Part shown: piece by piece, positions 878-63,209 of the stretch
Layout: every line of letters begins with the position of its first letter
Position numbering within the stretch: position 1 is the first letter of the stretch
Assembly: GCA_963575745.1 (NCBI GenBank)
Contig: CAUYUJ010018736.1
Span: 62,001 to 126,000, forward strand
Origin: Prorocentrum cordatum
Taxonomy: Eukaryota; Sar; Dinophyceae; Prorocentrales; Prorocentraceae
DNA length: 64,000 bases
Direction: 5' to 3'
Program-made: the position numbers and the translations under genes
Notes under the pieces: model-generated
Database searches by the model: none
The model's input: the letters and a program-made list of their open reading frames with translations, nothing else
What the model was told of the DNA's origin: nothing

Positions 878-1498
878 CTAGGTCTGCAAACCTATTCGTA
901 TTATTCAAGTCATCTTGACAGGAACTCTCGGTTTTTTGTACTTAACTCGAGCTGTAGGACAGCTACAGAGCTGATATTTACAGAAACCGATTCAGAATCA
1001 TCAGTTGCGTTTGTCTGTCGAATTCAGAGCTCTGAACTCGGTCTGCTGCCCGATCTAGAATTGCGAAACTATTCGTATTGTTCGGGTCATCTTGAGGAGT
1101 GCTCTCGGTTTCCTCCATTCAACTCGCGCTGAGGGGAGCTACAGTGCCGGTACTTACAGGAATCGATTTCAAGACATGAGACGCGTCCGCCTGTCGAATC
1201 CAGAGCTCAGAACTCGGTCTGCTGCCCGAATTAGGTCTGCGAAACTACTTTATTGTTGGAGTCATCCTTAGAGGTGCTGTCAGTTTTCTGCACTCAACTC
1301 GGGCTGTAGGGGGGCTGCATGGCTGGTAATGACAGGAGTCGACTCGCAGACATGGGACGCGTCCGCCTGTCGCATTGAGAGGTCACAAAATATTTACTAT
1401 GAGTCGGAATGTTGGTAGGTGCTCGGTGTTCTCAACTTCAGTCGAGCTGGAAGCTCTACGAGTCTCCCGGCGGTAACCAAGGTCTACGGGTCTCCCGG

Positions 1499-1536
1499 CG
1501 GTAGCCATTTCGGCTCAAGTAACGTGTCGGCTCAAG
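1499..1536 (+). other. Tandem dinoflagellate spliced-leader relicts
   Basis: Positions 1501-1519 read GTAGCCATTTCGGCTCAAG, which differs from the dinoflagellate trans-spliced leader (as I recall it) only by C for T. A second, degenerate relict ending TCGGCTCAAG follows at 1520-1536. Tandem relicts are expected when a trans-spliced mRNA is reverse-transcribed, inserted, transcribed and spliced again. The left edge merges with the target hairpin arm (CGGCGGTA), so the exact 5' boundary is ambiguous. Confidence 0.85.
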
Positions 1537-1630
1537 GTCACGGAGCCGCTGACTTTGTCCTGCCTGGGCTACCTCCGCCAAGGCCAGCGGTAGTGATCAG
1601 CAGAGCCTGAGGAGCATATCGTAATTCTTC

Positions 1631-3034
1631 GTGCAAGTATTTGGGACCACGTCGTACGACACACCCGAGTCGAGACAAGCTTTGTTGGAAGCAATTGGAT
1701 TGGGGCGCTGGAACGAGACAGTTGCTCAGTGGCATCAGAATACAAGTCAAGATCTTGACTGCCCATTGACGCCTCGAGAGGATCGTGGGGATCATTTCGA
1801 TTACTTGGATCAATTTGAACCTTGGGACGCTGCTGATTTAAGATCCTTGGAGCGTGCATCAGGGAAACGACAGCGTGAAGACGACAAAGCATTTCTTAAT
1901 AAGTGGGGTATTCCATCACAGATTTCAGAAGCAATAATGTCGGGTGCATCCTCTTCGGTTGATGCAAATATGAACGCTGCTATGGACACAAATAAAGAAA
2001 ACAAGAGACCGAGGAATGGAGGTGATATTCAAAAACAACGTGAGGAGATGATGAAAACTGCCACCACTGGGTTTGAGAGGTTCGTCATGGACCATTTCTT
2101 CAAAGCAGAGGATAGCAAGGAGGAGATTTTACAGACCATTCAGAACACGAACAATCATATCAAAGCCGTGGAGAGTACATTGCAGAAGCACGATGACAGA
2201 GCTAACAAGATGGAGGAGAGGATGAATAAGTTTGAAGAGGCCCTGCGTCAAGTACATAATGGAAGTGGTGCTGGATCAGATGTTTCTCGTACTACTGATG
2301 GTGGTGGTATTGGAGGCGGTGGGCCGCCTGGATTATCTCCCAGTTCGCGTTTCCAGGACTTCAAACCGACATACATTGAGTTGAAAGGGTGGGTGACGAA
2401 TTGGTCAGATCATGGCGCGCGGGCAGAGCAACTTCTAACGTGGGGTGATTGCCAAAAACTTATTGATAATTGTTTGGAGCGATGCAATCAACTCGAGAAG
2501 GACGCAGTGGATCGTGAAACAACTGAACGTATCAATTCGGGCAGGTATATGTTTGGCAGTGTTAAGATCAGTTTCAAGCCCGATACGAGTAGGGACCTGC
2601 TCTGGACGATTAAAAAGAAGTGGGATGCAATCATTAGGAATACGGTTGATGGGCACAATGGTCTACCTTTACCTGCAGTCTTGACTGAGGGCCTTGCGAT
2701 TCAGTTCCCAGGATCAAATTTACGTGTTCAAATCGAGTGCGCACCTTGGAAAAGGGATCACGTTAAAGCTGTGGCGAGGTTTTGCGGTGCGTTCAGGACG
2801 ATGACGCAACAGCACGCTCAGATCGAAGTGAGAGGAGAAATTGGACCACCGCGATCGTTGATATGGACCGTCGCCAAGGGTGCTTTGCGTCCCATCAATA
2901 TCGCCACATTCACTTCAGCTCGTAATACTTGGGAGGTGCACGAGCCACAGTGGCAGCAGGTTGTCAGTGCTTTTCCTGCGGTGGCGGCTGTCACTAAGCA
3001 GATGCTAGAGAGTGAGGTCAACAGACGCCAATGA
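1631..3034 (+). CDS. LINE 1 ORF1 (Gag-like nucleic-acid-binding protein)
   Basis: The frame is open from 1625, after a TAA at 1622-1624, to TGA at 3032-3034. The first ATG is 1937 (codon 103 counted from 1631), so the N-terminus is uncertain. Similarity to the ORF1 of copies 2 and 3 (ERAS.KRQ; FL.KW.IP) starts upstream of that ATG. About codons 150-215 form a charged heptad-like helix (EEILQTIQNTNNH to EERMNKFEEALRQ), probably a coiled coil. A Gly-rich linker (GGGIGGGGPPG) follows, then a C-terminal domain with GWV.NW, W(K/R).H and EVRGE.GPP, shared by all three copies. Position and plan resemble LINE ORF1 proteins that coat the element RNA. I cannot assign an RRM or zinc knuckle by eye. ORF2 follows in the same frame. 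Confidence 0.75.
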   Translation: MQVFGTTSYDTPESRQALLEAIGLGRWNETVAQWHQNTSQDLDCPLTPREDRGDHFDYLDQFEPWDAADLRSLERASGKRQREDDKAFLNKWGIPSQISEAIMSGASSSVDANMNAAMDTNKENKRPRNGGDIQKQREEMMKTATTGFERFVMDHFFKAEDSKEEILQTIQNTNNHIKAVESTLQKHDDRANKMEERMNKFEEALRQVHNGSGAGSDVSRTTDGGGIGGGGPPGLSPSSRFQDFKPTYIELKGWVTNWSDHGARAEQLLTWGDCQKLIDNCLERCNQLEKDAVDRETTERINSGRYMFGSVKISFKPDTSRDLLWTIKKKWDAIIRNTVDGHNGLPLPAVLTEGLAIQFPGSNLRVQIECAPWKRDHVKAVARFCGAFRTMTQQHAQIEVRGEIGPPRSLIWTVAKGALRPINIATFTSARNTWEVHEPQWQQVVSAFPAVAAVTKQMLESEVNRRQ

Positions 3035-6000
3035 CAAAAACGATATTGGAGCAAGGGACTTCGTATCGGAACATGGAATGTAGGTAATTCGGGTGTTTCC
3101 AACTCACGTGGGACCGAGGTTCTAACATCTCTGAGGAAGATGGGAGCCTCTTCAATTTTCGGTTTGCAAGAGTGTGAGTTCTTTGACTCAGCTGAATTAG
3201 ATAGACTCGGTTGGCATTTTAAACCTTCCAGGGATAGACGTGCAGGCTTGTTGTATGCCCATGGGTGGGCCCAGCTCCTGCGCGAGTGTGTCACAGACTG
3301 CGATAGATTTGTCTTGGGTGTGTTTGGAACGGAGGCGTCTCAGGTGATCATATGTTCGGCTTATTTTCCACATCATGATCGTGATCAGTGTGATCTTGAA
3401 TCGGCGGAAATGCTGGGGGAGTTGGAGGGTCAGATCCGTCTCTTGAAGCAGAAATATCGTCAGGCCAGCTTTTGTTTGCTTGCGGATGCCAATGTTGAGT
3501 TGCCACCACTTGTTCAGCTTGAGGTTGCAGGTCAGGGTTATGCTGCCACTGGGACGGGTACGAAATCATGGAGGAGGACGGGATCTGAAGGGAAGGCGGA
3601 GAGGGAGAGGAAGGATAGGAGGCAGATATTGACGGATAACTTGCTGACCTTTATGCAGACTTGGGGTTTGTTAGCTGCCAACACCTTCGATCGTCGTCGC
3701 CCGACCTGGGAGCCCTGGGGACAGGAGCGGAATCGTTCTCGGACTAGATCGATGAGGAGAGTCTTAGACTATGTGATGGTACCGATGGGGTGGGAGGTGC
3801 AGGAGTGTAAGATCGATTTCAAGTATCGCTGCGGTGGAACTCATAATCGTAGTAGACTTGCTGATCATGCTCTAGTTATGTGCACAGTACGACAGCCCAG
3901 TCCTGACAGGACTGATTGGACGGTCGAGCGTGTGCATAGGGAACCTTCTTTGGTGGGATGGCGGGCTCAGACGTATGCGGACGAGATGATAGGGAGGGAA
4001 AGGGTTGACCTCGAGTTTTGCGGTGCCGTGTTTGCTGGATGTGGTTCCCCTCCAGCTGTGTCGACACGACCGCAGGACGTGACAGTGACCGCTCCTGTCA
4101 TTTTGAAAGCATTCACGCAGGAGGATGTGGATTACTCCACGACCTCAGCTGCCCGGCCTCGGGCGCCTTCTCGCCCGCCCGAGCTCACCCGTCTCGAGGA
4201 GCGGATTCGGTCCCTTCAGAATGGTCCAGAGAAAAAGAGACTCAGAGCAGCTGCCAATGTTTGGAGGAGACAGTATCGGCGTGATCTTCTTGAATGGGCT
4301 GTACCCCCGACCCGTCGTAAGATTCGGCATCGTATCAAACATGTGGTGGTTGATGGATGGGAGACGGAGGATAGATATATCTTGAAGGAGAAGTTGGAGG
4401 AGCATGTTAAGGGGAAGGTGACATCACAGCGTAGGAGGGAGGAGAACTGCAACTTGATGGAGGGAATCAGGAGGAAGGCGGAGGAGGAGATCAAGGGTGG
4501 CCAGATCATTCGAAGTATTACGATGTCGATATGTTGTGCAGCGAGAGCTCGTCTTCGAACGCGACGGGCAACAGGACCTGATCGCGTACCTTGTGAAATG
4601 CTCAAGCTTCTCCCATGGTGCACAGTTCGGCACATCCAACAGATCTTTGACTCTCTTCTGAGGCTGGCTGTCCAGTACCCTGTTCGATGGAGGGACATTC
4701 TCATTGCATACATGCCTAAACTAAAAGGGATCACGAACTTGGCGGATGCCCGACTCTTGTGCTTACAGAATAGCATAACTCGCTGGTTCTCGGCGTGCGT
4801 AGTTATCCTGGTTGAGCAGCATGTGGAGGAGTCTAAGCTTTTTCACCCTCTGGGCCTCTATGGGTTCCGTCAGGGTCACAGCACATCCCATATCACGAGT
4901 AGCCTTACCAATATGTGCATGCACGGGGACAAGTGGGGGAAGCGTGAGTGTCTGTACGTTGCGGACATGGACATATACCAGGCCTTTGACAACTGCACGA
5001 TACAGAATGTCCATAAGAGTCTTGAGCATGCACGTGTCCCTGCGTATTTACAGCACGCGTTTCTGGATCCGTTATCGCATAGCACGGGCTGCCTCTACTA
5101 TGACGGGTTGGAGATTGATAACATCCAGTGGGACACCTGTATTAGGACTGGAGGCCCAGAAGGGCCCTTGGGCTTTAACCTCATTATTGCTGCCATGTGG
5201 GGTGACGTTATTCACAATTGGGACGTTCAGGGCATGGGGTATGCGGTAGATTTCGGTACGGAGCATCGGTCGGTGGTGAATCATTTTATCTGGGCAGATA
5301 ACGTGTACCTCGTCAGTCGTAGCCGTGAGGAGCTTACCCGTATGGTAAGAGACTTGACACTTCCACTGTACAACTTCTCCATGCGATGGAAACCCACATC
5401 GCTGAAGTACATGGTGTGCGGAACTCCTGCTATCTTGGATGAGGACGGGAATATTCCGCGTTCGATGGATCTCAAAATACCGATCTTCTCAGATGCATGT
5501 GACGGGAGGAATGTAGTGCAGCAGATTGATGAGTTATGTTATCGTCGGGTTGTTTCTATGGACGTACTGGGCACGCAGCTGCATAGTGAATATAACTGTT
5601 CTGTACATCGTGATGTTTCTTTTCGCCTTGACTGTGCTCGTCGCGCATTTTACTCTCAGGCAGGGTATTTCAGGTCACATTGTATTCCTCTCAAGGATAA
5701 GCTGCGGAGATACCAGGACAGAGTCCAGAGCTTGGCGCTGTATGGTATGGAGACCACCACTGCAGATTCTTATACTCTTTCGTTTCTCCATTCATTCGAA
5801 GGGAAATGCCTGAAGATGATGATCTCTTCTCGGAAAGGCCCGACGGAAACGGAGCAAGCTTATCAGCAGAGGAGATATCGTGTCGCACGGGAACGTTTCT
5901 TGAAGGCTGGGTATTCTTCTCTTGTCCAGCGTTATCTGATATTGCACTGGAATTTCGCAAAAGACATTGCATGTTTTGCAAAGGGCATGATAGTTGAGAA

Positions 6001-7024
6001 AGTCATTGACTTGAAGGATACGGAGAGGACATGGCGCGATTCCCGTATGGCATGTTTATGTTTTGGACCGTACACTGACCGCACTCGTACACTTATGAGC
6101 GAGACGATGAGACACTTTGGCAACTGGTCAGAGGCATCTTCTTACAAACGTCGCTGTCGAGGTACGGAGAGTATTGGACAGAGGTCATGGCAATATACAT
6201 TGGCTGAGTTTTTCGGAGATGATTGGTGGATTCATTTTGCAGGCTCCCAGCTTGGATTTATGCAATACGTCACACACCTTTGTACTCAGAGCATGCTTCA
6301 ATGTTTCCAGGAGGTGTCGACGTGCGGACCTGTGGGTTTGCCCGCATATTTGGCGCCCTCTGAGCATGGTGAAATTCAGGTGAGCACGGATGATAGTCCG
6401 ATGGCTGCTGAGAAACTTGCAAAGCGCATCGCTCTTCATAATATGAAAGCAACCCGTTGGAACCTGGAGGCCCCTGGAATCCCTCTGGAGGTGGTGGGTG
6501 ACTCGCTTCTCGTTGTTAGCTGGGCTACGGGACGGTGGCGTGCAGATAATAAATCATATGCGGATAGAATATCAAAAATAATCAATACGCTTGATGGGCT
6601 TTGTAGCAGTTATAATATACGACCTCCAGCGCCGGGTATGGATCTTATTCGTCATGATTTTCGGGAGTGGAATACTCGTGCCGACGTTCTAACACACCAG
6701 GCCCGAGAGGGCCAGATTTCTAGTTCTGAATGTAGTCCGTATACACATGATTATGAGACAGAGTTTTACGTTGCTGCTGCTATTCGGGCTGGTTTCGATG
6801 GCGGCGTGTCGTCTGAGGGATGTGGGTGCGGTTGCTGGATTGACATAGGCCTCAAACCTCGATATTGGGATCGACGGGACCCCGCTCAGCTGATATGGAA
6901 GTCAGTTTTTGAGAGGGCTTGGCTTATTTCTCCGACCACAACTGTTACTGATACAGAACTCAGTGCTTTGGAGTGCATCGTGACTGCACTCCCACAGGTA
7001 GTTCTATGGTTATCACAGACTTGA
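3035..7024 (+). CDS. LINE 1 ORF2: APE endonuclease, reverse transcriptase, permuted RNase H
   Basis: The frame continues from ORF1 through a single TGA (3032-3034). The first ATG is 3140, but the endonuclease motif GTWNVG (Asn codon 3077-3079) lies upstream, so an ATG start would lose a catalytic residue. Numbering from 3140, the endonuclease shows QEC (E11), DAN (D116, N118) and ADH (D242, H243). The reverse transcriptase has ATGPD near the fingers, motif A D609 to D617 (ADMDIYQAFD), motif B RTGGPEGP and motif C WADN (718-721). A thumb/connection region with VLGTQL and ALYGMET follows. The C-terminal RNase H segments come in the order GDS (D1121), NTRAD (D1182), FDGG (D1220), TELSALE (E1273). 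This is the replicase of the element: it nicks the target, reverse-transcribes and probably removes RNA. No frameshift or stop was seen. Confidence 0.88.
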   Translation, partial: QKRYWSKGLRIGTWNVGNSGVSNSRGTEVLTSLRKMGASSIFGLQECEFFDSAELDRLGWHFKPSRDRRAGLLYAHGWAQLLRECVTDCDRFVLGVFGTEASQVIICSAYFPHHDRDQCDLESAEMLGELEGQIRLLKQKYRQASFCLLADANVELPPLVQLEVAGQGYAATGTGTKSWRRTGSEGKAERERKDRRQILTDNLLTFMQTWGLLAANTFDRRRPTWEPWGQERNRSRTRSMRRVLDYVMVPMGWEVQECKIDFKYRCGGTHNRSRLADHALVMCTVRQPSPDRTDWTVERVHREPSLVGWRAQTYADEMIGRERVDLEFCGAVFAGCGSPPAVSTRPQDVTVTAPVILKAFTQEDVDYSTTSAARPRAPSRPPELTRLEERIRSLQNGPEKKRLRAAANVWRRQYRRDLLEWAVPPTRRKIRHRIKHVVVDGWETEDRYILKEKLEEHVKGKVTSQRRREENCNLMEGIRRKAEEEIKGGQIIRSITMSICCAARARLRTRRATGPDRVPCEMLKLLPWCTVRHIQQIFDSLLRLAVQYPVRWRDILIAYMPKLKGITNLADARLLCLQNSITRWFSACVVILVEQHVEESKLFHPLGLYGFRQGHSTSHITSSLTNMCMHGDKWGKRECLYVADMDIYQAFDNCTIQNVHKSLEHARVPAYLQHAFLDPLSHSTGCLYYDGLEIDNIQWDTCIRTGGPEGPLGFNLIIAAMWGDVIHNWDVQGMGYAVDFGTEHRSVVNHFIWADNVYLVSRSREELTRMVRDLTLPLYNFSMRWKPTSLKYMVCGTPAILDEDGNIPRSMDLKIPIFSDACDGRNVVQQIDELCYRRVVSMDVLGTQLHSEYNCSVHRDVSFRLDCARRAFYSQAGYFRSHCIPLKDKLRRYQDRVQSLALYGMETTTADSYTLSFLHSFEGKCLKMMISSRKGPTETEQAYQQRRYRVARERFLKAGYSSLVQRYLILHWNFAKDIACFAKGMIVEKVIDLKDTERTWRDSRMACLCFGPYTDRTRTLMSETMRHFGNWSEASSYKRRCRGTESIGQRSWQYTLAEFFGDDWWIHFAGSQLGFMQYVTHLCTQSMLQCFQEVSTCGPVGLPAYLAPSEHGEIQVSTDDSPMAAEKLAKRIALHNMKATRWNLEAPGIPLEVVGDSLLVVSWATGRWRADNKSYADRISKIINTLDGLCSSYNIRPPAPGMDLIRHDFREWNTRADVLTHQAREGQISSSECSPYTHDYETEFYVAAAIRAGFDGGVSSEGCGCGCWIDIGLKPRYWDRRDPAQLIWKSVFERAWLISPTTTVTDTELSALECIVTALPQVVLWLSQT

Positions 7025-7307
7025 TTGTTGCAGTTTTCTTAATTCATTGCTGCTTCCTCATACTATTATATACTCAGCTTCGCTGGGACTTCTCTCTTTT
7101 CTTTTGCATGTTTAGTTGACTGCACTTTGATTCATTTCTGTGTGCGTTTGCTCGTTCGCTCATATTTGTGATTGATGATTCATCGCAGCTTCGCTGCTCT
7201 GGGTTGTCTTGACTTTAGGTTCGAATAAGAGCTTTCGCTTCCTGATGACACCTGACCTCGTGCTTGCTCGTGGCCCTAGGGCCAGTAGGAGCCTCGCAAA
7301 GCCGCAA
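7025..7307 (+). other. LINE 1 3' UTR
   Basis: This is a pyrimidine-rich non-coding tail in which the hairpin-like CAGCTTCGCTG occurs twice (about 7076 and 7186). It ends CAAAGCCGCAAAA directly before the target CCAAGG. In LINEs the ORF2 protein normally recognises the 3' end, so the repeated short hairpin is a candidate recognition element (inference). Copies 2 and 3 do not obviously share it. Confidence 0.5.
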
Positions 7308-7340
7308 AACCAAGGTTGACGGTTTACCGCCGGCGTCCAG

Positions 7341-8217
7341 TGCGGCGTTCCGCGCTTGGCTTCGCTATCTGGGTTTTGGACGCTTACAAGTGGAAGCTAC
7401 CAAGTGTTTTTAATTCGAGCTGCAGGGCAGCTACACAGCTAGTAAGCAAATCTATCGCATTCAGAATCATGAGGCGCGTTTGCCTGTTGACTCCAGAGGT
7501 CTGAACTCGGTCTGCTAGCCGAGCTAGGTCCGCAGTCCTATTCGTATTATTCGAGTCATCTTGACAGACGCTCTAGGTTTTCTGTACTTAACTCGAGCTG
7601 TAGGGCATCTTCAGAGACTATAGTCACATAAATCGATTGGAAATCATCAGGCGCGTTCCTCTGTTGTATCGAGAGCTCTGAACTCGGCATGTTGCCCGAG
7701 CTAGGTTTGCGAAACTATTCGTATTATGCGAATCATCGTGAGAAGTGCTCTCGATGTTCTGCACTCAACTCGTGCTGGGGGAGGGCTACAGTGCTGCGGG
7801 TCACAGAAATCGATTTGCACAGATCAGGCGCGTTCGTTGGTCGATTCCAGAGCTCAGAACTTGGTCTGCTGCTCGAAACAGGTCCGCGAAACTATTGTAT
7901 TATTCGAGTCATCCTGAGAGATGCTGTGGGTTTTCTGCACTTAACTCGGGCTGTAGGGGGGCTGCAGGGCTGGTAATCACATGAGTCGATTCGCAGACAT
8001 TAGACGCGTCCACCTGTCGCATTGAGAGGTCTGAACTCGGTCTGATACTCGAACTGGGATGCGAAGCTGTTTTTTTGTTAGAGTAATCTTGAGAGGTCTG
8101 AAATCGCTTGGGCTGAAATGTAGTCGTTCTCTGGTTTCTTTCCCACACTATCTACTGTCAGGAAGCTCTACGAGTCCCCCGGCGGTAAGAAAGGTTGACG
8201 GTTTAGCCGGCGCCCAG
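7341..8217 (+). mobile_element. A-type unit, 3' part with damaged hairpin
   Basis: After the CAG end at 7340 the sequence reads GGGTTTTGGACGCTTACAAG (from about 7370), a leader also seen at 32840, then 177-bp-type monomers. The subterminal GGAAGCTCTACGAG is at 8161-8174. The right stem arm has lost bases (GTTTAGCCGG), so this hairpin cannot pair fully. It ends CAG at 8217. No 5' terminus is visible. Confidence 0.65.
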
Positions 8218-9868: not shown

Positions 9869-10265
9869 TACCTCGTAGAGCTCTTCGGCATCGGTGAGCT
9901 AGAGGAATTCCGGCGCGGGGTGGAGCTAGTTGACTCACCCGGCCAGAACGGACAAAGTGATAACTTTTGGGTAGTTTTGCAATTTTTTGGAAGATATTTG
10001 ACCATTCATTTTAAGAAAGCAGATTTTTCGCACCTGTAGACGATTATGAGGGCCTCAGCGTCTTGATATAAGCTCTCTAGATGCACTTTTACTGTCAAAA
10101 CACTTGGCGAAACCAACTCTATGTCGACGTGAAAAATCATGTTTTCTCGTTTTCGAGAAACGCTTCCAGAAGCCCTCTCGTATGATTCTGAGCACTCTTA
10201 CGCGTGTTAGGAGCTCTACGAGGTTCCCGGCGGTGACCAGATTGACGGTTCACTGCCGGCGCCAG
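9869..10265 (+). mobile_element. Complete B-type hairpin unit (397 bp)
   Basis: It starts TACCTCGTAGAGCTC. It ends with GAGCTCTACGAGG, then the stem CCGGCGGTGA and its near-complement (here with one mismatch, TCACTGCCGG), then CCAG. It is non-coding. The empty site (AAGTTA^TTGCTGG) is reconstructed from its flanks and matches intact A-type units. Confidence 0.85.
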
Positions 10266-14271: not shown

Positions 14272-15520
14272 TGGACGCTACCAAGTTGGCAAGAAAAATC
14301 TCGACGGAACTTTTGCTGACTTTTGGTCGGTTGAAAATTTTGTTCTCGGAAGTCAACAATTCGTTTGAGCTCTAGTTTTTTTCCCGTAATATTCGATCTT
14401 ATTCCCGCTCGCCATCTTGATCTTAGCTCGATCGGGTGAATATTACTATCGAAAAGCACTCTGGTGGGATCGACCGTTTTGAGTCATCTTGGTACGCGCT
14501 AACGGTTTCCTGAACATAAGTCGAGCTTGAGGACAGCTACAGAGCTGGTACGCACAGCTAATCGGTGTAGAATGATTTGGCGCGTTCACCTGTTGAATCC
14601 AGAGGTCTGAACTCGGTCTGTTAGTCGAGCCAGGTCTGGAAACCTATTCGTATTATTCGAGTCATCTGATAATAACTCTCGATTTTCTGTACTTAACTCG
14701 AGCTGTAGGACAGCTACAGATCTGGTTAGCACAGCTCATCGATGTAGAATGATTAGGCGCGTTCGCCTGTTGAATCGAGAAGTCTAAACTCGGACTGTTT
14801 GCCGAGCTAGGTCCGCAAACCTATTCGTATTATTCGAGTCATCTTGCAAGAAACTCTCGGTTTTCTGTACTTAACTCAGCTGTAGGACAGCTGCAGAGCT
14901 GATATTTAGAAAAACCGATCCAGAATCATCTGTTGCGTTTTCTGTAGAATCCAGAGCTGTGGACTCGGTCTGCTGCCCGATCCAGAATCGCGAAACTATT
15001 CGTATTGGTCGAGTCGTCTTGAGAAGTGCTCTCGGTTTTTTCCCTTAACTCGCGCTGAGGGGGGCTACAGTGCTGGTGGTCACAGGAATCGATTCGAAGA
15101 CATCAAGCGCGTTCGTCTGTCGAATCCAGAGCTCGGAACTCGGTCTGCTGCCCGAATTAGGTCTGCGAAACTACTGTACTTTTCGAGTCATCCTGAGAGG
15201 TGCTGTCGGTTTTCTGCACTTAACTCGGGCTGTAGGGGGGCTGCAGGGCTGGTAATGACATGAGTCGATTCGCAGACATCAGACGCGTCCGCCTTTCGCG
15301 TTCAGAGATCAAACAATATTTACTATAAGTCGGAATATTGGTAGGTGCTGTCGGTTTTCTAAACTTCAGTCGAGATAGGAAGCTCTACGAGTCTCCCGGC
15401 GGTAACCAAGGTTGTGCGCCAGTGATCAGTGGGCTGAGCTTTGTTTACCCAGCGGTAACGAACACACCAGACAGCATCGAGCCTCCGTGGGGAGAGTGAG
15501 GCTAACATCTTTCGTTTCGA

Positions 15521-16849
15521 TTGTATACCATCATTTTCGAAGCAACGGCGATTGTTGAGCCTGAACACGTTTCAGAGCACCAGCGACGGGACAAGATTTT
15601 CATTCAACGACAAGAGGAGAAGCGACGTCGATTGGAGGATCAGCAGTTTTTGCAGAAGTGGAGTATCCCGACTGACATTGTAGGAAATATGGCCCTCAAT
15701 GATGCAGCATCGACTCCAATGGCAGCAGCAGCAGCAGCTCCAACAGACAGGACACCTGCCAATGGTCGTCGCCGACGGAGGGCAGAGGAGGAGGGAGAGG
15801 ACGCAGAAAGAGGAAAGGCAGGCATGGATGGACTGGATGAGTCGATCAGTTCCGATGGAGAGCAGTTTGATCCAGAGAATTGGCAGCAACAGATGTTCAA
15901 CATGAATAAAGCAATTAGCAAAAACACACGTAAGACGGAGCGTAAGGTCAAGAGTTTGCAAAACGAGGTGGGAAACATTCAGAGACGTCAAGATGAGGCA
16001 GATATTAAGATGAATGATTTGCAAAAGCAGTTTACAGAGTTCAAAAGGGAGGCGGGAAAGAGTGGGAGTATTGCATCAGGATCGACGGGAACGGGCACCA
16101 CCCCGAACTTAGCATGGGGGATGGCAAAAGGATTGGGTAAAGGAGCTCAGGGCGCATGGAGTGCATCGAAGATTAAAATCAAAGGATGGGTTGTTCATTG
16201 GAAAGACCCCCCAATGCGTACGGCAGAAATGTTGACACCATACGATGCGGAGAAACTGGTTGAGAATGCCATGGCCACTTTATCGGATGATTTGAGGCAG
16301 AGGATCGATCATAAAGCCAGCTTGGAGATGATGGGAGCATATACCGATAATCAGGGCCGTCAAAACACTCGTTCACTTATTTCAAAAGTGAGTTTGATTG
16401 CAACGCGAGGTACTGATTCGAGTCAGTTGTGGGAGATCAAACGTAACATTGATCCTCATGTTCGAGTGTTGCCTGAAGGACCGCTCATCACGGGTATGAC
16501 GTCAAAGCCAGATACTTTCACAGGAGGAAACGTCAGGTGTGTGATTGAGAGTGCACCGTGGAAACAGCCACACATTGCCAAGATCGGTCAGTTCAAAGAG
16601 ATCTGGAAACATCGTCAAATGTACCAGGATGCCGCCAATGTTGCCCAGAATGTTCCAGAGGTGAGGGGAAAAGCAGGGCCTCCAGCGACGGAGATTCTCA
16701 CGATCGCACCCGACAGCCAGACTCGCCCAGTGTCGCTGGCGGAGTGGACGGAGAGAGCAGGCTGGACGATTCACAATGATTCGATGATGACCCTGATGCC
16801 GACGTTCACAGCGGCAAAGTTCAAAGCAGACCTCGAGGCCCTAGCCTGA
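15521..16849 (+). CDS. LINE 2 ORF1 (Gag-like)
   Basis: The frame ends at TGA 16847-16849 and has no ATG before 15689; 15521 is a TTG. Conservation with LINE 1 (FLQKWSIPTDI versus FLNKWGIPSQI) lies upstream of the first ATG, with the codon differences mostly synonymous, which points to a non-AUG start. The features are a basic/acidic N-terminal region (RRRRRAEEEGEDAE), a helical segment around KNTRKTERKVKSLQNEVG, and the shared C-terminal domain (KGWVVHW, SAPWKQPHI, EVRGKAGPP). A role as RNA-binding chaperone is inferred from position only. Confidence 0.72.
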   Translation: MYTIIFEATAIVEPEHVSEHQRRDKIFIQRQEEKRRRLEDQQFLQKWSIPTDIVGNMALNDAASTPMAAAAAAPTDRTPANGRRRRRAEEEGEDAERGKAGMDGLDESISSDGEQFDPENWQQQMFNMNKAISKNTRKTERKVKSLQNEVGNIQRRQDEADIKMNDLQKQFTEFKREAGKSGSIASGSTGTGTTPNLAWGMAKGLGKGAQGAWSASKIKIKGWVVHWKDPPMRTAEMLTPYDAEKLVENAMATLSDDLRQRIDHKASLEMMGAYTDNQGRQNTRSLISKVSLIATRGTDSSQLWEIKRNIDPHVRVLPEGPLITGMTSKPDTFTGGNVRCVIESAPWKQPHIAKIGQFKEIWKHRQMYQDAANVAQNVPEVRGKAGPPATEILTIAPDSQTRPVSLAEWTERAGWTIHNDSMMTLMPTFTAAKFKADLEALA

Positions 16850-19800
16850 CGGGGCCACTCCAGATGTGATCTGAAAGGAAGTTTGATGAGTTGGAACGTC
16901 TGGAGGGCAGGTAGAGACAAAACAACTCAAGTTTTACAACGAATTCAAATGCATGGGAGAAGTGTGGCTTTGGTAGGCCTCCAGGAGTGCCTGCACCTCA
17001 CACACAGTATCATTTCAAAGGAGGGATGGAGATTGTTGCGTAGTAAAGACAAGCTAGCGGGTTTCATGTTCCGAGCGAGTGTTCCTATTAGATACACAGA
17101 CAACCAGTCAAATCGGGTTGTGCTCATCGTAGTCGGCAAAATCATCGTTGTCTCGGCCTACTTTCCACATGAGGAGAGAAGGAATGCGGTGGCAGAGTTC
17201 AATGCCCTAGCCAACTTGGTGAGGTCGAAGATTCAGGCAGCACGTATGCAGTTTGAGTAAGAAGGGGGGAAAGATTTTGAGGTGGCCATCTTGACAGATG
17301 CGAATGTTGAGTTGCCTGCACATGTACGGGGTGAAGGAGGAAAGGAGGTCACTGGAGGAGGTGTACGTACGGACTTGCAGGTGGGACAGGCGGTGGGAGG
17401 CTTCGAGACGGAGAGGACGAGGAGGAAAAGGAGGATGCGTGAAGCCCTAGTCGACCTTATTGTTGTGCTGGACCTTGTGGCGTCGAACACGTTTCGGGAA
17501 AGGCTTCCAACGCATTTTACTCGTGCACAGAAGGTACCGCAGGTGCTCGATTATATTCTTGCTCCGGCGTGGTGGGGGAAAGCTCGAGTACAGTGGCAGG
17601 ACGTCAGGGACACAGGTAATGAGACGTCGGACCATGCAGCGGTGTTGCTGGAGTTGCCCGTATCGATCCGCCCGGCCCCGAGAGTAAAAATGAGACGACC
17701 CGTGCACCCCAAATGGGAGCCAGAGACCGAGCCAGGCCGCAGATTGTTCTCAGCCCAGAACTACGACAGGTTAGTGACGGAGCGGGGGGAGGGAGACTAC
17801 GTGCCACCAGGTAAGTTGTCCGAGGTGATGCTAGGCGCGGCGGAGGGGATCCCGACGAAGCAGATGATTCGAGAGGTTCCTCAGAAGTCAGAGAAACACA
17901 AAGCCCTGGAAAGAGCCAAAAGGTTGAAACAATGGGAGGACGAGGAGGAGAGGAAAGAAATAAACCGACAGTTGCGAAAGGAAAAGAATGTCCTAAAGTG
18001 TGCCATGCTTAAGTATGCCAGCAGATCAAAGAAGAAATCCAGGACCGAGATGATCACTAAGTTAAACATCAATGGGAGGATGGAGGAGGATCAAACAAAA
18101 TGGAGTTCGGCACTGTATGAGCATACCAAGGGGAAGTTTACGAATGAGCACATCAGGAGGGAGACGGAGGAGGTGATGGAGGAGCTCAGGGACCAGGCCC
18201 ACACGGACACCGTCAGGTTGACTTTCGACTTTAGTGCGATGATGAATGCCAGATCCAGACTGTCGGTGGGCAAGCAGACGGGGGAGGACGGGATCACGGT
18301 TAGCATGCTGAAGACTCTAGGCTTCGGGAACCTTCAGGAGATATTTAAGACGTTTTCGGCCATATATGAGGGACGGGAGCCGACGCCAGAGGACTGGCGC
18401 AAGATAATACTCACGCTCATTCCCAAGAGTGAGAAGATTACGAGTTTGGAGGATACCAGAGCGATTGCAGTTTCTTCATGCTTAACTAAGTGGTATTCGC
18501 TTTCCCTGGTTGTGGTCCTGGAGAGGTTCCTGGCCAAAAACTTGGATCCCGAGATGAATGTATATGGGTTTATGTCTGGGAAGAAAACGACGGAGGTCAC
18601 TTCGATGATTAAACATATCGGTAAACGTGCCTCGATTTGGGGGAAGGGACAGAGCTTTTGGCTCTGCAGTTGTGATATTCTGAAAGCGTACGATCACCTT
18701 CGACTTACGACATGTGTGAGAGCAATGAGAGTGCTGGGGGTTCCTTCTTCTTTTCAGTATGCTATCTTGGAGCCGATGCTGAGAAACACGGCGTCGGCAA
18801 ATTTCCAGAGTACCCAGTGCGAGACAGTGCCGTGGGACACCTGTGTTAGGACGGGAGGAGTTGAGAGCCCCATCTTATTTGTGCTTGTCACGATTGCGAT
18901 GATTGCCCCGACGATACACTCGTGGAAAGAGAGAGGCCTCGGATACAACATCGAGAGACCGAGGGCGTATGCAGATTCGATCGAGGCTAAAGTTGGAGCC
19001 AGTTCTCGCGCGATCGAAGGCTCCCAGGAGATGGAGGTCCATCAGAGTCTCAGTCATGCGATATGGGCGGATAACTTTTTCATTTTTGCCCAAGGTGATC
19101 GACAGGAGGGTAAGAAGATGATTTCCACGATGATGCAGGAACTTACGATATCGATACGAGAATGGGGCTTCGAGTGGAAGCCCAGTTCGATTGAGTTAGC
19201 GACGTTTGGAGTTGACTTTGAGGCAGAGGCGTTGGAGATCCCAATCCCGACCAAATCTTTTGAGCAAGGACCGAAAAGACAGAGATCAGAGATCACATCT
19301 TTGGATTCAGCTGCGAGAGTAACCCCGTTGACAGGACATACACCGCTTCCTCATCCTTCTATGCCAGTGTCACAATCACTTCTTCATTCACAGTTGGCAG
19401 AGCCGCAATCACATCTTCATTCGACATATCAGACAGCTACGCTGAGCAACATATCCGACAGCTACGCTGAACAGACATATCAGACAGCTACGCTGAATAG
19501 AAATATACCCGGCCAAAAGGCTTCAAGCGCAGACTCCGTGACAGCCATCACGGTGCCCGATCTCTGCACTGAGACAGCACCAACGACGTTTTCTTATGCA
19601 CATTTGCCAATGTCAGTGCCAGATGTTCACTCTCATGTGCCTTCGTCGTCGTTAATAAGAGTGCCTGTTGTTCTTTCGCAGTTGCCTGCAAAAACGGATT
19701 CTCTTCATTCTCGTGTGTCTTCGTCGTCGTGGATAAGAGTGCCTGTTGCCTCAGCTTGTAGTGTGCAGCCTGTTGCCTCAGCTTGCAGTGTGCACGAATT

Positions 19801-21397
19801 GTCTGAGCATGCGGGTGCTGGCGCGTTTACCGGCTTGGTGGAGACACTCTTCGTTCCGCGAGTGCAGGAGATTACTTTTCTGGGTGTGCGGCTGCACACT
19901 CGAATGAGGACGCACTTGGATGTGCAGTATCGGATCCAGAAAGCTCAGCATGCGTTCTTTCAAGACATGAGCTTGTATCGATGTCGGTCGGTCCCGTGGG
20001 CGGTGAAATGGGAGAAGTATGTGAGCAAAGTACAGGGCACTTTCTTGTATAGCGTTGAAGGATCGAGTATCGACAAATCGGCATTGCAGGATATTCATAA
20101 GTTTGAGGGGCGTTGCTTGATAAAAATAGTTGGTGTACGAAAAAGGATTGATGAATCATGGTTCAGCTTCAATGTCAGAGCCTATAACTTTGCCAGGGGG
20201 AAATTTCGTGAAAAACATCCCAGCCTGGTAGAGTTGTACTTGCAAAAACAATGGGAGTGGAATAAGGATTGTTGCTCGTTCTTGAAGACGGCGGACATCG
20301 CGACAGATGCGGTTGGCAGTCAACAGAGTTGTGGAGCTTGGCGAGAATCATCAAGTGTGTGCCACAGTTTCATGACTGCGAGGTTGGCGATGTTCCATGG
20401 TATGAAACGTTGGACAGAGAGACGTGATTTGTACAATGAAGCGATCAGGGTGCTGAGTAAAAATTGGAAGAACCCAGAGGTGTCAGAAAAACGACGGAGG
20501 ATTGATTGCCAGGCAATAGGCCAGACATCATGGCACGCTACATTTGAAAGTTTTCGGGGAGATGAGTATTGGAAACACTTGACACATGATGAGGAGACGC
20601 GGAAAGCATGGATTGAACATATCAAACAGAGGACGGGACTTGCATTCGATCGACATTTTAAGCAGGAGAAAGAAAAACGGGTGGGACCTAACACTTGGGA
20701 GGAGGAGGAGGCACCAACACGGGCGGAAAATACAAAGCAGGCCAAGAGACTCGCACATGTTTTCGCGACGATGACGGACTGGTGGGAGTACGAACAGGGG
20801 ATTGCACGAGGGCTGCCAGTGGAGATCCAGGGAGATAACATGGCCACGATTAAGTGGTTAAACGGGGAGTGGAAGATCCACAACCGAACATATGCCAGAC
20901 AGATTGCCGAAATACAAAATGAGTTTCACGAGTTGCATGAGGAGTTTAACGTTGTCGGAGCCACGGTCGGAGGAGACATAGGGAAGCATGTCTATCGGGA
21001 GGGAAATCTGAGGGCTGATGAATTAACTCACATTGCACGCATCAGAGATATAGAGTATGATAGGACTCACGAGCTACAGGAGTATGACCTCTACGCCCTG
21101 CGGGGCGCTTTCGACGGTGGAGTCGATAAGGATAAAGCAGGAGCAGGTTGGTGGCTGGAGGGATTGATCAAAGCATCGGCATCTCATTCAATATATGGGA
21201 GCTTCGCCTTTCTGGATAGACCACAGTGGGTGCTGATCAAATCGAAGGCGTTTGGCCTTCCCCCTCAATATTCTGCCATGAACACTGAATTCGATGCTTT
21301 ATCGAGCCTCTGCGAGGCCATCTTTAGTGTAACCCGTAACTTCGCCCGTAGGGTTAGGCTGAAGAAACGAACTGTGGCTGCTTTTGGCAGCCGTTAG
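16850..21397 (+). pseudogene. LINE 2 ORF2: endonuclease, reverse transcriptase, permuted RNase H; one internal TAA
   Basis: The frame continues from ORF1 through TGA (16847-16849); the first ATG is 16883. A TAA at 17258-17260 interrupts the endonuclease between QEC (Glu codon 16985) and DAN (Asp codon 17297). The rest is open in the same frame to 21397, so one nonsense change (or a second leaky stop) separates it from intact. Further marks are SDH at 17627-17635, motif A Asp codon 18674 (CDILKAYD), motif B RTGGVESP and motif C WADN at 19064-19075. RNase H segments follow as GDN (20834), RAD (21017), FDGG (21113) and TEFDAL (Glu 21287). A Ser/Thr/Pro-rich stretch of about 200 residues, absent from copies 1 and 3, sits between palm and thumb (about 19268-19865). 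Confidence 0.85.
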
Positions 21398-21451
21398 ACA
21401 GATCGCAAAAGGCAAAAAAACCAAGGTTGACGGTTTACCGCCGGCGCCCAG

Positions 21452-34313: not shown

Positions 34314-34705
34314 TACCTCGTAGAGCTCTTCGGCATCGATGAGCTGAAGGAATTCTGGCGCGGGGTGGAGCGAGTTGGTCGACCCGGCCAGAAAGGACAA
34401 AGTGACAACTTTTGGGTGGTTTTGGAACAAATTGAAGGATGTTTGCCAATTCATTTGAGAAAGCAGATTTTTCGCAGCTGTAATGGGTTATGCCGCGTCT
34501 GTCAGTAAATTTCCCAGGGCTATAGGTGCAGTATATTAATCGAAAAACTTGGAGGAACCGACGTTAGCTAAAAACAGAAAAACATGATTTTTCGATTTTT
34601 TTCCTCGCTCCAGAAGCTTTCTTCATGTGCTCCGACGATTGCTGTGCAAGAAAAGAGCTCTACGAGGTCCCCGGCGGTACCTCTACGAGGTCCCCGGCGG
34701 CCCCC

Positions 34706-34728
34706 GGCTCAAGACATCTCGGCTCTAG
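34706..34728 (+). other. Spliced-leader relicts of LINE 3
   Basis: GGCTCAAG, the 3' end of the dinoflagellate spliced leader, is directly followed by a 15-nt degenerate relict ending GGCTCTAG. LINE 4 has the same 8 + 15 nt pattern, which supports common descent by repeated trans-splicing and reinsertion. Confidence 0.75.
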
Positions 34729-34842
34729 GGCTCCTGGATCCCACAGGAGCTCAGGGGGTGTCGGCGCCGCGGGGAAGCCGCGCGGCGGCCATCGCTGCCA
34801 TCGACGAGTACGGCATCTTCCAGGCAAGCCAGGCCGCCTGCT

Positions 34843-36456
34843 TTGTGTGCTGTAATTGTTGTTTTGTTTGTCGTGTGTGCAAAGACGGACGGGTACGACT
34901 TTTCAGTGCTTGCGAGACGTTTCCAGCTGGAGGATATTTCCCCGACTGTACCATATTTGCAGTACTCACAGGATTACGGACAGAGACCAGATTCTGCTGT
35001 TGAGAGGGCATCTCGGAAGAGGCAAATTCAGGATACCGAGCAGATTGTACGTGACCTTCCATTGGACGGGAGATTGAATACTGCCGACTCCACACCAGAT
35101 AGTGATAGCCATTGTGTTGTCCCACCTTCATTTGTGAATATGAATACAGGACTCATGAATATGATGCAGACTCCTTCCAACGCAGCTGTGGCGGGAGCTA
35201 CAACCAACGGAGGGCGTGCGGGAGGGGTTCCAGTAGGTCAGGTCAGTCCTGGAGGTCAAGGATCTGGAGGCGCTCCTGTTGTTCCTAGAGGCCCAGCTCC
35301 ACAAGGTGCTCTAGGGGGACCCCCAGGTATGCCCACGGAGGCACAACAGGCGGCGGCCCAAGCGGCTGTTGTCCCTGAAGGTGCTGGGGAGCGTCATGGT
35401 ATGCAGGGTGTTAGCGACGACGCCCAACGAAATGTCAATCATCGTGTCAACGGTCCTCACGAGGCACTCTTGGGAGAACTCGAGGAGAAGCGAAAGAAAC
35501 TCAGTGTGGTCTCGGACGAGGCCCCATCCTGGTTCAAGGCCTTCGCGGAGCTCAACGTGCTTGAGAGCAAAGTTAGGCAACAAGAAAACGTCGAAATCAG
35601 GGCCGATATTCAGAGCATCTCGAATCGTCAGGAGGCCTCAGACATCAGGATGAACAACTTGGAACGACAGATGCAGGATCTCAAGAAGAACCCCAGTGTG
35701 ATATCAGGTGCAGCCTCGACTACGGCACCTTCCTACGGAGTGGGCCCACCAGGACTCTCAGGACCCTCCAGTTTCAGTCCCAGCTATGTGGAGCTCACAG
35801 GCTGGACAGACTGGAATGGGACAGCGGTTGCACGTTCGGCCAGTATGATGAGAGACACGGACGCTGCACAATTCATCACTAATTTGAAGACGGCCATCGC
35901 CGCAGAGGATGAAGCTAGGATCGACTACGAGGGCACATTACGTATGAATGGAAGTAGAATGATGTTGAGTACGATCAAAATCAAATTCATTGTAGGAACC
36001 GACTCTTCGACATTATACAACGTGAAGCGTGCTTTTGATGATGCTTTAACTCCGAATCCCCAAAGGAATGCGGCTCAGGTTTCGAGGTCACCTCCAGATA
36101 ATGACAGCATGTTCCAGGGCATGTTACAACGACCCAGTCGGGTCCGCGTACGCATAGAGGACCCACCTTGGAAACGTGATCATATCGGGGCTGTGGGGCG
36201 CTTCTATGGGACATACCGCGAGTGTACCAACAGTGAGGCTATGGAGATCAGGGGGGAGACAGGATCGGGACCCAACGGACGGAGCACAATGTGGACCACG
36301 CCGCAGGACCCTCAGCATCGACCCGTGGAACTGGCATCCTTTCGTATCAATACGGGGTGGACAGTGGACCGCGAGATCTGGGAGGGGGTACTTATGCGAA
36401 GTGGTGTGACGACTACATACGACACATTTGTTACGAATCTTGCCGGCAGGACGTGA
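34843..36456 (+). CDS. LINE 3 ORF1 (Gag-like)
   Basis: The frame is open from 34729 to TGA 36454-36456. The first ATG is 35139, yet ERASRKRQ (matching ERASGKRQ of LINE 1) lies upstream of it. A Gly/Pro/Ala-rich region (codons about 125-175) precedes a helical segment (ELNVLESKVRQQ to NNLERQMQDL). The shared C-terminal domain follows (ELTGWTDWNG, PPWKRDHIGAVGRF, EIRGETG). The role as element RNA-binding protein is inferred. The start coordinate is the first possible near-cognate codon reported here (TTG) and should be treated as approximate. Confidence 0.7.
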   Translation: MCAVIVVLFVVCAKTDGYDFSVLARRFQLEDISPTVPYLQYSQDYGQRPDSAVERASRKRQIQDTEQIVRDLPLDGRLNTADSTPDSDSHCVVPPSFVNMNTGLMNMMQTPSNAAVAGATTNGGRAGGVPVGQVSPGGQGSGGAPVVPRGPAPQGALGGPPGMPTEAQQAAAQAAVVPEGAGERHGMQGVSDDAQRNVNHRVNGPHEALLGELEEKRKKLSVVSDEAPSWFKAFAELNVLESKVRQQENVEIRADIQSISNRQEASDIRMNNLERQMQDLKKNPSVISGAASTTAPSYGVGPPGLSGPSSFSPSYVELTGWTDWNGTAVARSASMMRDTDAAQFITNLKTAIAAEDEARIDYEGTLRMNGSRMMLSTIKIKFIVGTDSSTLYNVKRAFDDALTPNPQRNAAQVSRSPPDNDSMFQGMLQRPSRVRVRIEDPPWKRDHIGAVGRFYGTYRECTNSEAMEIRGETGSGPNGRSTMWTTPQDPQHRPVELASFRINTGWTVDREIWEGVLMRSGVTTTYDTFVTNLAGRT

Positions 36457-39400: not shown

Positions 39401-40619
39401 TTGCGGATGGACGGGGGGAGGATGTACCTGCAGCGACTGTGATGGAGGTGGAGGGGAGGATTACGGATATGGAGAGGCGGCTGGAGGATCTTTGCTCGCA
39501 GGTCGCCTGTTCCATTGCCCGCTCACAGCCGATGCCCTCTGGAGAGGGAGCTGCCCACACTCTCAGAGACGAGAGCCACTTGCCGTCTCAAAGGGGAGGA
39601 GGGCCTTTCGAGACTCCCGACGTGCGCTTACGATGTACAATGTTGGCTGGGTCACGGCTCGCGACACAATAACAGAGGTTCTACGACAACACGGCAACAG
39701 GGCCTTATCTAGTTCGGGCAAGCGGCTTCGTGGAGGCCCTGTGTCTGTGGGCGGTCGGTCTTGGCAGTTCCCCTACATTCAGTTCTTTGGGGAAAAGTGG
39801 TGGGAGTCTGTACGGGGCGATTGGGTTCAGTTCTTGGAGGTATGGAAGCAACTCCTTACACAATACAACAAAACTAAGGTCTATGATTACTTTGTGGTGT
39901 CTTGGAAGGGCTCTTCTAATGGACCTCGAGGCTCCCCTGAGGCTCGAGAGAAGGCCGATACTGAGGCGGTCGACATCGCGACCAACCCTCTGCACCCCAA
40001 GTACGACCCCAAAGAGTCCGCCAAGCTTGCAATCCGTTATGCTATGATCCAGGAACGTGCGACTGTGTGGGATATATCCTCAGAGGGTTTTGCTGCTGAG
40101 TTCAAGGGTGACTCATTACTTATCTGCTCCTGGCTACAGGGGAAATGGAGATGTGAGAGTCGTGGCTACTGCAAGAGGACAGCTGCCATGATTGATTGTA
40201 CCTTTGAGCTCGCTGCGTGTTTCAATCTGAGGCCTGCTGCCTTGGGACGCGAAATATGGAGACATGAATTCAGGGAGGACAATACACGAGCGGATGAATT
40301 GACGCATGAGGCCAGATGTGGCCGCACATTCTACAGAACTCATTGTTATCTATATCCATTCGAAACTTATCTCTTACCGTTCGCTATCAGGGGAGGCTTT
40401 GATGGCGGGGTTGACCAGCAAGGATCAGGATGTGGTTTCTGGCTTCAGATCGGCTTAATCAATACTCAGTGCAATCCCAGTGAGATAGGCATCGCTTCCG
40501 CGAGAACCGTGGGCCCCTTCCCTGCTGGGCATGAGTTTGCTGTTTCTAGTGCCGTGCCCCTCGTTTGGAGGGATGTGGCCGAGGCCGCGTGGCTCCTCGA
40601 AGGAGCTACAGTCACATAA
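36457..40619 (+). pseudogene. LINE 3 ORF2: endonuclease, reverse transcriptase, permuted RNase H; frameshifted
   Basis: The frame continues from ORF1 across TGA (36454-36456). The motif LGTQN (Asn 36517) precedes the first ATG at 36523. The endonuclease has QEC (Glu 36607), GDFN (Asp 36919) and SDH (Asp 37291). The reverse transcriptase has GPDG, motif A Asp 38371 (CDIERAFD), motif B RTGGTESP and motif C WADN (38698-38709). The first frame stops at 39670. The homologous continuation (RAFRDSRRALT...) is in another frame from about 39600, so an indel occurred near 39590-39605. The RNase H part has GDS (40110), TRAD (40293) and FDGG (40401), and then TAA at 40617, just before the expected catalytic Glu (CELSAAE). 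The truncated copy at 43767 reads GAA at that codon. Confidence 0.83.
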
Positions 40620-40757
40620 TGTGAATTGTCGGCAGCCGAAGCGCTGCTCAGCGCTGCCCGTGTGCTTCTGCGGGGCCGGTCCTCGCCCAGCTGCACTCAG
40701 CTGGGAACGCGAGTCCAAACAAACAAACCAGGTTGACGGTTTACCGCCGGTTCCCAT

Positions 40758-62912: not shown

Positions 62913-62935
62913 GGCTCAAGAAATCTCGGCTCAAG
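62913..62935 (+). other. Spliced-leader relicts of LINE 4
   Basis: GGCTCAAG is followed by the 15-nt relict AAATCTCGGCTCAAG. The spacing is identical to that in LINE 3. Confidence 0.78.
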
Positions 62936-63000
62936 GCGCTTGACATTTGATCCCCTCTGCCTGGGTAACCTCCAGTGGGATCGAGTGCGCGTCAGGGAGT

Positions 63001-63170
63001 CACACGTTTGTCGCCTAGAGTGATATTGCACTGCCATTCATCTGACACGTTTGATCGCCTTGAGTGGTCTTCAATTGATTTGTTTCACACGTTTGTCGCC
63101 TAGAGTGATATTGTGCTGCCATTCATCTGACACGTTTGATCGCCTTGAGTTGTTCTCAATTGATTTGTTT
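63001..63170 (+). repeat. Direct duplication, 2 x 85 bp, in LINE 4 leader
   Basis: CACACGTTTGTCGCCTAG begins each copy (63001 and 63086), with only a few differences. Tandem copies in a 5' UTR of a LINE can act as promoter or ribosome-entry modules (family knowledge from other LINEs; not shown here). Confidence 0.85.
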
Positions 63171-63209
63171 TGCTTTGTGCTTCCGAGGCAGTCTCTGCCA
63201 TCATTCGTT

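Follow-up and report, generated by a model that had tools for sequence, protein, structure and literature searches.

In a 64,000-nt stretch of the Prorocentrum cordatum genome (C17887:62001-126000 of the assembly; hereafter the window, always meaning its full length), we identified long interspersed nuclear elements (LINEs) that very probably represent a site-specific, L1-like family with an apurinic/apyrimidinic endonuclease (APE)-type nuclease. The normal target of this family would be a hairpin located close to the 3′ ends of rolling-circle-like units, which are abundant and non-autonomous and resemble HINE elements. The window contains five insertions, named c1, c2, c3, the truncated copy and c4. 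All lie on the + strand and each interrupts a hairpin, which bears out the places and common orientation given in a preliminary description of this DNA. Their positions are listed here with one uninterrupted hairpin; families A and B of the target units are described below.

1475..1483, + strand: 5′ copy of the target duplication AACCAAGGT (hairpin loop) of c1
1484..7307, + strand: LINE copy c1, in the hairpin loop; its rejoined flanks match an intact hairpin
7308..7341, + strand: 3′ duplication copy of c1, then loop remainder, right stem arm and tail of the host unit
15404..15414, + strand: 5′ copy of the target duplication AACCAAGGTTG of c2
15415..21418, + strand: LINE copy c2, second lineage, in which no leader relict was seen
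34680..40726 (boundaries approximate), + strand: LINE copy c3, third lineage, in a family-B hairpin
43767..44200, + strand: 5′-truncated copy of the c3 lineage, in a different family-B hairpin
62913..64000, + strand: insertion c4, in which spliced-leader relicts at the 5′ end are fused to a left hairpin arm
53176..53220, + strand: example of an intact target hairpin with stem CCGGCGGTAA / TTACCGCCGG, loop CCAAGGTTGACGGT and tail CGCCCAGT

In c1, c2, c3 and the truncated copy, the LINE 3′ end falls at a common point, the top of the hairpin stem, immediately ahead of ACCAAGG, ACCAGG or ACCAGT of the loop. The loop duplications reported earlier for two copies are both exact, comprising 9 bp in c1 (AACCAAGGT, 1475-1483 and 7308-7316) and 11 bp in c2 (AACCAAGGTTG, 15404-15414 and 21419-21429), and identify these as true insertions; inspection of the junctions revealed no duplication at c3, the truncated copy or c4. 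Rejoining the c1 flanks restores a hairpin present intact at 42-118 (98.7% identity over 77 bp, 0 gaps), and the c2 flanks correspondingly match the one at 53147-53225 (97.5% over 79 bp, 0 gaps). The rejoined c3 flanks resemble a variant hairpin at 28855-28921 (91% over 69 bp, 2 gaps); for the truncated copy, the matches listed include none that spans the junction. The truncated copy is a separate insertion: its LINE end and 3′ flank are identical to c3 at 493 of 510 positions, whereas the host DNA upstream of these copies shows 82% identity over 282 bp. Rather than the same 30-bp hairpin, as first described, the insertions share one position in three related hairpin types of differing sequence: the loop is CCAAGG at c1 and c2, CCAGG/CCAGT at c3 and the truncated copy, which occupy the second element family, and GAAAGG at c4. 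Under uniform insertion, the chance of this placement is ~3e-8 for three junctions and 9e-11 for four. No further LINE coding DNA was detected in the window by tblastn with the open reading frames (ORFs) of the insertions (E 1e-3). We also observed a second left hairpin arm at the 5′ junctions of c1 (1484-1504) and c3 (34680-34700), as if second-strand synthesis had slipped or switched template.

For a genome-wide view of the c1 lineage, the assembly (4,128,499,153 bases in 21,875 contigs) was searched with 271 aa from the end of the c1 ORF2, which yielded 5,627 first-look candidates. At least 142 copies with 92-100% identity over the probed region are present, a lower bound since 142 were scored among these candidates. 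An open frame of 1329 residues was found in 49 of the 142, with one flagged as containing a stop, and from these sequences the family looks young and numerous. We read the 3′ flanks of 60 copies, in all of which the match reached the query end; they comprised the 20 best rows (excluding those of the window itself), 20 stepped through rows 22-110 and 20 from rows 115-141. The right hairpin arm directly follows the LINE end in 51 of the 60, and a form of GGTTGACGGTTTACCGCCGG stands behind the LINE in every one of them. By our own count, the loops of the 51 are CCAAGG-type (20), CCAGG (2), GAAAGG-type (18), CAAAGG-type (6) or other (5). Another six copies are partial cases, with flanks opening with a loop or a diverged hairpin: the hairpin of L048 is diverged, the loop is followed in L047 and L063 by GGCTCAAGG, the 5′ end of a further leader-tagged insertion, in L078 and L083 (probably one locus) by c3-type LINE sequence, and in L059 by other DNA. 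In L047, L063, L078 and L083, a second LINE or leader-tagged insertion stands right behind the first within one hairpin loop. Such a tabulation of 3′ flanks had been proposed in the preliminary description, and the contrary outcome that it named, most copies lying in unrelated flanks, is not what the c1 lineage shows. The 5′ flanks of 20 copies with 1329-residue frames carry the left arm in 15 cases, are unrelated in one (L110) and unreadable in four (L116, L118, L125 and L126); the left arm is thus present in 15 of 16 readable copies, two of which (L113 and L115) are probably one locus.

The same association emerged when the hairpin was taken as the starting point. Across 4.13 Gb, the pattern AACCAAGGTTGACGGTTTACC was counted 5,305 times and its reversed control 0 times. 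At 18 exact loops on other contigs (L028-L045), the left arm is present in 16, and LINE coding DNA lies directly upstream in two. In L032, this LINE shares 47% identity with c1 over 199 aa; L045 holds a c3-like LINE at the hairpin, the DNA of which agrees with the truncated copy at 85% over 367 bp. An A-rich end without an arm, at C6:41730, had no LINE match in 3.1 kb. Neither LINE nor hairpin was found in 17 stretches picked regardless of repeats (153,541 bases, some of them N).

The units that carry the hairpin form a long, mostly head-to-tail mass in the window and mostly measure 0.3-1.5 kb. A pattern of hairpin loop plus right arm matched 35 times at ≤3 mismatches (34 on the + strand, one on the − strand, 0 in shuffles), and a looser script identified 46 unit ends in the window. 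Two families were distinguished. Family A starts with T-AACTCGTAGAGCTTCC and ends with GGAAGCTCTACGAGT, followed by 44 nt that include the hairpin and close with CCCAG before a T; family B starts with T-ACCTCGTAGAGCTCTT and carries AAGAGCTCTACGAGGT ahead of the hairpin. Unit starts read TAACTCG/TACCTCG and unit ends CCAG, and the hairpin, with a stem of ~10 bp, is located 7-8 nt from the 3′ end. Subterminal inverted repeats match at 15 of 15 bp within one family-A unit; in family B, they span 14-17 nt at 88-93% within one unit and match at 16 of 16 positions between neighbouring units. Both repeats seem to have changed together in families A and B, to judge from their sequences. Units also hold 177-bp central tandem repeats. 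Their end sequences and two complete examples are as follows.

TAACTCGTAGAGC... and ...GCCGGCGCCCAG: end sequences of the target units
41982..43181, + strand: complete family-A unit of 1200 bp with 177-bp central repeats, within a family-B unit at A^T
9869..10265, + strand: complete family-B unit of 397 bp, within a family-A unit at A^T

Among 13 element starts in foreign flanks, four rejoin to uninterrupted host, all at A^T. The rejoining test was passed by 6 of 65 real joins versus 7 of 2000 random joins; the six joins reduce to four starts, as 24118 accounts for two of them and 32950_34266, which matched no place but its own, was discounted, and a gapped rejoin (57412) was left out of the count. 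Insertion at the four restored sites took place at A^T without duplication, where a 1-bp T duplication would look identical. Since restored empty sites were found, nested insertion partly replaces a reading of the units as 5′-truncated, with constant 3′ end and variable start. Many units are still without a 5′ end. With inverted repeats, a 3′ hairpin and restored A^T sites, the hosts show transposon anatomy, in keeping with the transposon-on-transposon relationship suggested at the outset.

Several other explanations were weighed against a hairpin-targeting LINE family. Local coincidence, in the form of a LINE with a weak ACCA-like preference in hairpin-rich DNA, is scarcely credible. If ACCA were the only requirement, 16 of the 65 ACCA sites in the window lie within hairpins and four of four junctions would do so with p = 0.004, which is not negligible; genome-wide, however, 51 of 60 copies on many contigs sit at the hairpin, and 29 of those 51 loops, again by our count, lack ACCA (GAAAGG, CAAAGG etc.). 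Weakened by the k-mer control, an explanation by chance or a weak motif is rejected on the strength of the genome sample. It is also extremely improbable that the hairpin half belongs to the LINE as a common 3′ tail used by its reverse transcriptase (RT). That all 51 hairpin-borne copies precede a form of GGTTGACGGTTTACCGCCGG would agree with such a tail, but left arm and loop occur on the 5′ side, with duplications, rejoined flanks give intact hairpins, and L072, L094 and L099 have no hairpin and end right after a GCAAA-type tail. Hitch-hiking of one old insertion, carried along when its host unit was multiplied through rolling-circle transposition, unequal crossing-over or segmental duplication, is very unlikely, although a common printed flank indicates that some sampled copies may be one locus (L078/L083, L061/L064 and L101/L103) and the c1 flank is near-identical to a neighbouring unit end. 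Against it stand differing 5′ junctions (9- and 11-bp duplications, deletions and arm repeats), LINE lineages at 28-31% protein identity to c1, the many different sequences and several loop types that the sampled copies precede, and the near-identity of c3 and the truncated copy in host flanks that are 82% alike. We consider it rather unlikely that the units are ordinary satellite DNA and the LINE satellite-specific, comparable to LINEs of telomeric or ribosomal DNA repeats. The 177-bp tandem repeats, the head-to-tail order, the many units without a 5′ end and the fact that no Rep/helicase partner is known here would suit a satellite; the existence of two families, each having subterminal inverted repeats of its own and a constant 3′ end, and the four of 13 starts rejoined at A^T, in a test passed by 6 of 65 real versus 7 of 2000 random joins, would not.

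Other observations weigh against a LINE family confined to hairpins of rolling-circle-like units. The 60-copy sample was non-random, with duplicate loci still counted, and the genome-wide survey covers the c1 lineage only. Unrelated DNA lies 3′ of three of the 60 copies (L072, L094 and L099), and one of these, on C20972 (L072 and L110), has GCCTCCCAGGCC on each side; specificity is thus not absolute. Loop sequence varies between copies, whereas the stem and GGTTGACGG hardly vary. Another LINE with the WADN motif described below, the 5′-truncated C6 LINE (~25.46-27.99 kb, L002 and L026), shares 26-34% identity with the window lineages (tblastn pieces) and is flanked by GGACGCTTACAA on both sides, with no hairpin. 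WADN LINEs as a class are therefore not all hairpin-specific: the specificity first ascribed to them is borne out for the c1 lineage and not for the C6 LINE, for which a separate target is conceivable. A Rep/helicase partner was not found in the window, and RNA structure past the UGA codon discussed below was not significantly above shuffles (z -1.1, -1.0 and -0.2). Separately, the GGACGCTTACAA motif was also found at position 7378 of the window.

From its sequence and modelled fold, the LINE is assigned to the APE-type, L1-like elements. The c1 copy encodes two ORFs.

1625..3034, + strand: c1 ORF1 frame (stop to stop), closing with TGA
3035..7024, + strand: c1 ORF2, in the frame of ORF1, with APE-type endonuclease, RT with WADN motif and RNase-H-like C-terminus (the last recognized by eye and from weak matches only)

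RVT_1 was matched at E values of 8.5e-9 (c1), 1.5e-9 (c2) and 4.3e-12 (c3), and an RT profile matched L1 ORF2p at 6.6e-14. The corresponding RT motif in LINEs is usually written YADD/FADD (xADD); here, WADN was found in ORF2 of c1, c2 and c3, in P0005, P0006 and P0008 and in the C6 LINE (L002), an alignment of five proteins included. The endonuclease has catalytic-type motifs by eye and a Pfam EEP match below the cut-off. A low-confidence model of this domain (predicted local distance difference test, 44.7) gave Tdp2 as the best Foldseek match (E 1.1e-4), followed by the TRAS1 endonuclease (1.7e-4) and R1Bm and L1 (4e-4 to 6e-4), with probability 1.0 for these and for APE1. The ORF1 model, likewise of low confidence, contains a coiled coil and alpha/beta domains and had no PDB match at E 0.001. 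In c1, c2 and c3, ORF1 and ORF2 share one frame, separated by a single TGA (3032-3034, 16847-16849 and 36454-36456) that is followed by CAA in c1 and by CGG in c2 and c3. No ATG occurs in c1 and c3 between this stop and the first endonuclease motif, which suggests that the two ORFs are joined by UGA readthrough; excerpts of PMC3542737 describe UGA-CGG as a type II readthrough context. An extra stop (TAA at 17258) interrupts the endonuclease of c2, and the ORF2 frame of c3 is broken near 39.6 kb.

The lineages are as diverged as first described, with ORF2 identities to c1 of 28-31%. Because lineages this far apart use a common site, an old target choice, as also proposed there, is plausible; the c2 and c3 lineages are represented by their window copies and one c3-like copy (L045). 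In the protein database, c1 had three matches, with P0005 (99%) and P0006 (52%) as clear relatives, c3 had one (P0008, 63%) and c2 none. Viral, GTDB, phage and plasmid collections, which hold few eukaryotes, contained no relatives, and no ribozymes or other Rfam families were detected at gathering scores.

The 5′ ends of the insertions carry relicts of the dinoflagellate spliced leader (dinoSL), which point to a dinoflagellate host; in our judgement, the size of the genome is in keeping with this.

1499..1519, + strand: first spliced-leader relict of c1, at its 5′ end, agreeing with dinoSL in 19 of 21 bases
1522-1536, + strand: older, decayed leader relict behind the first in c1

The sequence at 1499, CGGTAGCCATTTCGGCTCAAG, has two mismatches to dinoSL, with 0 matches expected, and is the sole match in the window at ≤3 mismatches. 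A newer and an older relict are present at the 5′ ends of c1 (1499-1536), c3 (34700-34729) and c4 (62916-62936), and L107 has 20 of 21 leader bases; no relict was seen in c2. In our reading, 12 of the 15 left-arm copies have a GGCTCAAG-type relict at the joint or close to it, several in the form CCCCCGG|CTCAAG. From the succession of newer and older relicts, LINE transcripts appear to be trans-spliced before retrotransposition. The insertion c4 runs 642 nt beyond the window and stops at the hairpin point used by the other copies, at ...CGCAAAGTCCGCAAAAAAAGAAAGGTTGACGG (L046); its 3′ tail (L046) resembles that of c1. It had been listed as a fourth LINE copy; its place at the hairpin, leader relicts and c1-like tail stand, but c4 matches neither the LINE ORFs nor the other copies, and the next 6 kb likewise has no LINE ORF match. 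Given this combination, c4 is perhaps non-autonomous and short, with a length of about 1.7 kb. An open frame in c4 (62913-64000 plus L046:1-642) matches no other ORF here.

For a hairpin-targeting LINE family, the following sequence of events can be envisaged. LINE mRNA would be trans-spliced, with ORF1 and ORF2 linked via UGA readthrough. At the top of the stem, beside the conserved half GGTTGACGGTTTACCGCCGG, the endonuclease would nick the bottom strand, and the freed 3′ end would prime reverse transcription from the A-rich RNA tail. The top strand would be cut at variable places within the loop or ahead of it, and the cDNA would often be joined by its leader end to the left arm via the CGG common to both, as in the joint given above. 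A 3′ point that is constant and 5′ points that vary are what target-primed reverse transcription would produce if the first nick fell at the top of the stem and the second cut were loose. Many dispensable target copies would offer the LINE a safe, renewable niche. More tentatively, these elements may belong to a guild of anciently diverged dinoflagellate LINEs for which the rolling-circle termination hairpin is the niche. It is possible, if doubtful, that the endonuclease is not guided by sequence alone but reads the hairpin or cruciform in its extruded form and nicks it where stem and loop meet, with landing pads renewed by new rolling-circle copies and LINEs stacked in one loop.

LINEs that target transposons are seldom described, and we know of none for the end hairpin of rolling-circle transposons; a literature search of titles and abstract openings returned no LINE at such a hairpin. 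Tx1L of Xenopus, an APE-type L1-group LINE inserted in the transposon Tx1D, is similar in targeting another transposon. It differs in its host, in the terminal inverted repeats of Tx1D and in having no spliced leader, whereas the target here is the 3′ hairpin of rolling-circle-like units. TRAS and SART are site-specific APE-type LINEs; as in these and in R1, Tx1 and Keno, repetitive DNA is hit here by a specific endonuclease, with TRAS1 and R1Bm among the fold matches. The title on Tx1L appears as a reference in the excerpted PMC8869645. Excerpts of PMC4640811 give the R1 clade, the Tx1 clade and Keno as site-specific APE-type LINEs and name RNA genes, spliced leader exons, transposons, microsatellites and telomeric repeats as targets, with no Helitron hairpin among those named. 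Transposon-targeting LINEs are thus already on record in that text; new, as far as the titles and abstract openings searched show, is a rolling-circle-hairpin LINE with leader-tagged copies. The system shows one selfish element as landing pad for another and offers a natural setting in which to study how an APE endonuclease gains target specificity and whether DNA structure is read.

The target units agree with canonical Helitrons in A^T insertion without duplication, but not in the 5′ TC and 3′ CTRR ends of the latter. They are close to the non-autonomous Helentrons HINE/DINE-1. For these, the excerpted PMC4067079 reports subterminal inverted repeats of 12-15 bp, located near the 5′ end and 38-60 bp away from the 3′ end, a palindrome at a distance of about 8-35 bp from the latter and, in some copies, tandem repeats. 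Shared features are the subterminal inverted repeats, 3′ hairpin and tandem repeats; HINE/DINE-1 elements prefer TT according to the same excerpts, whereas the four restored sites here are at A^T. Dinoflagellate retrogenes with DinoSL relicts are described in parts of PMC12014239 and PMC6050394, and the relicts are similar, including a truncated CTCAAG followed by a 15-nt relict, but here they lie on LINE 5′ ends rather than on a host gene. The driver of dinoflagellate mRNA retroposition is called unknown in the relevant portion of PMC6050394, with long terminal repeat elements favoured; leader-carrying LINE copies bear on this question.

Minor irregularities were observed in the array of units. 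The stretch at ~47953-49118 seems reversed, with the hairpin on the − strand and the AT skew reversed, and a unit end at 49955-49978 has other sequence in place of the left hairpin arm. The GC content of the window is about 0.50, compared to 0.54-0.67 in N-free random stretches of the assembly.

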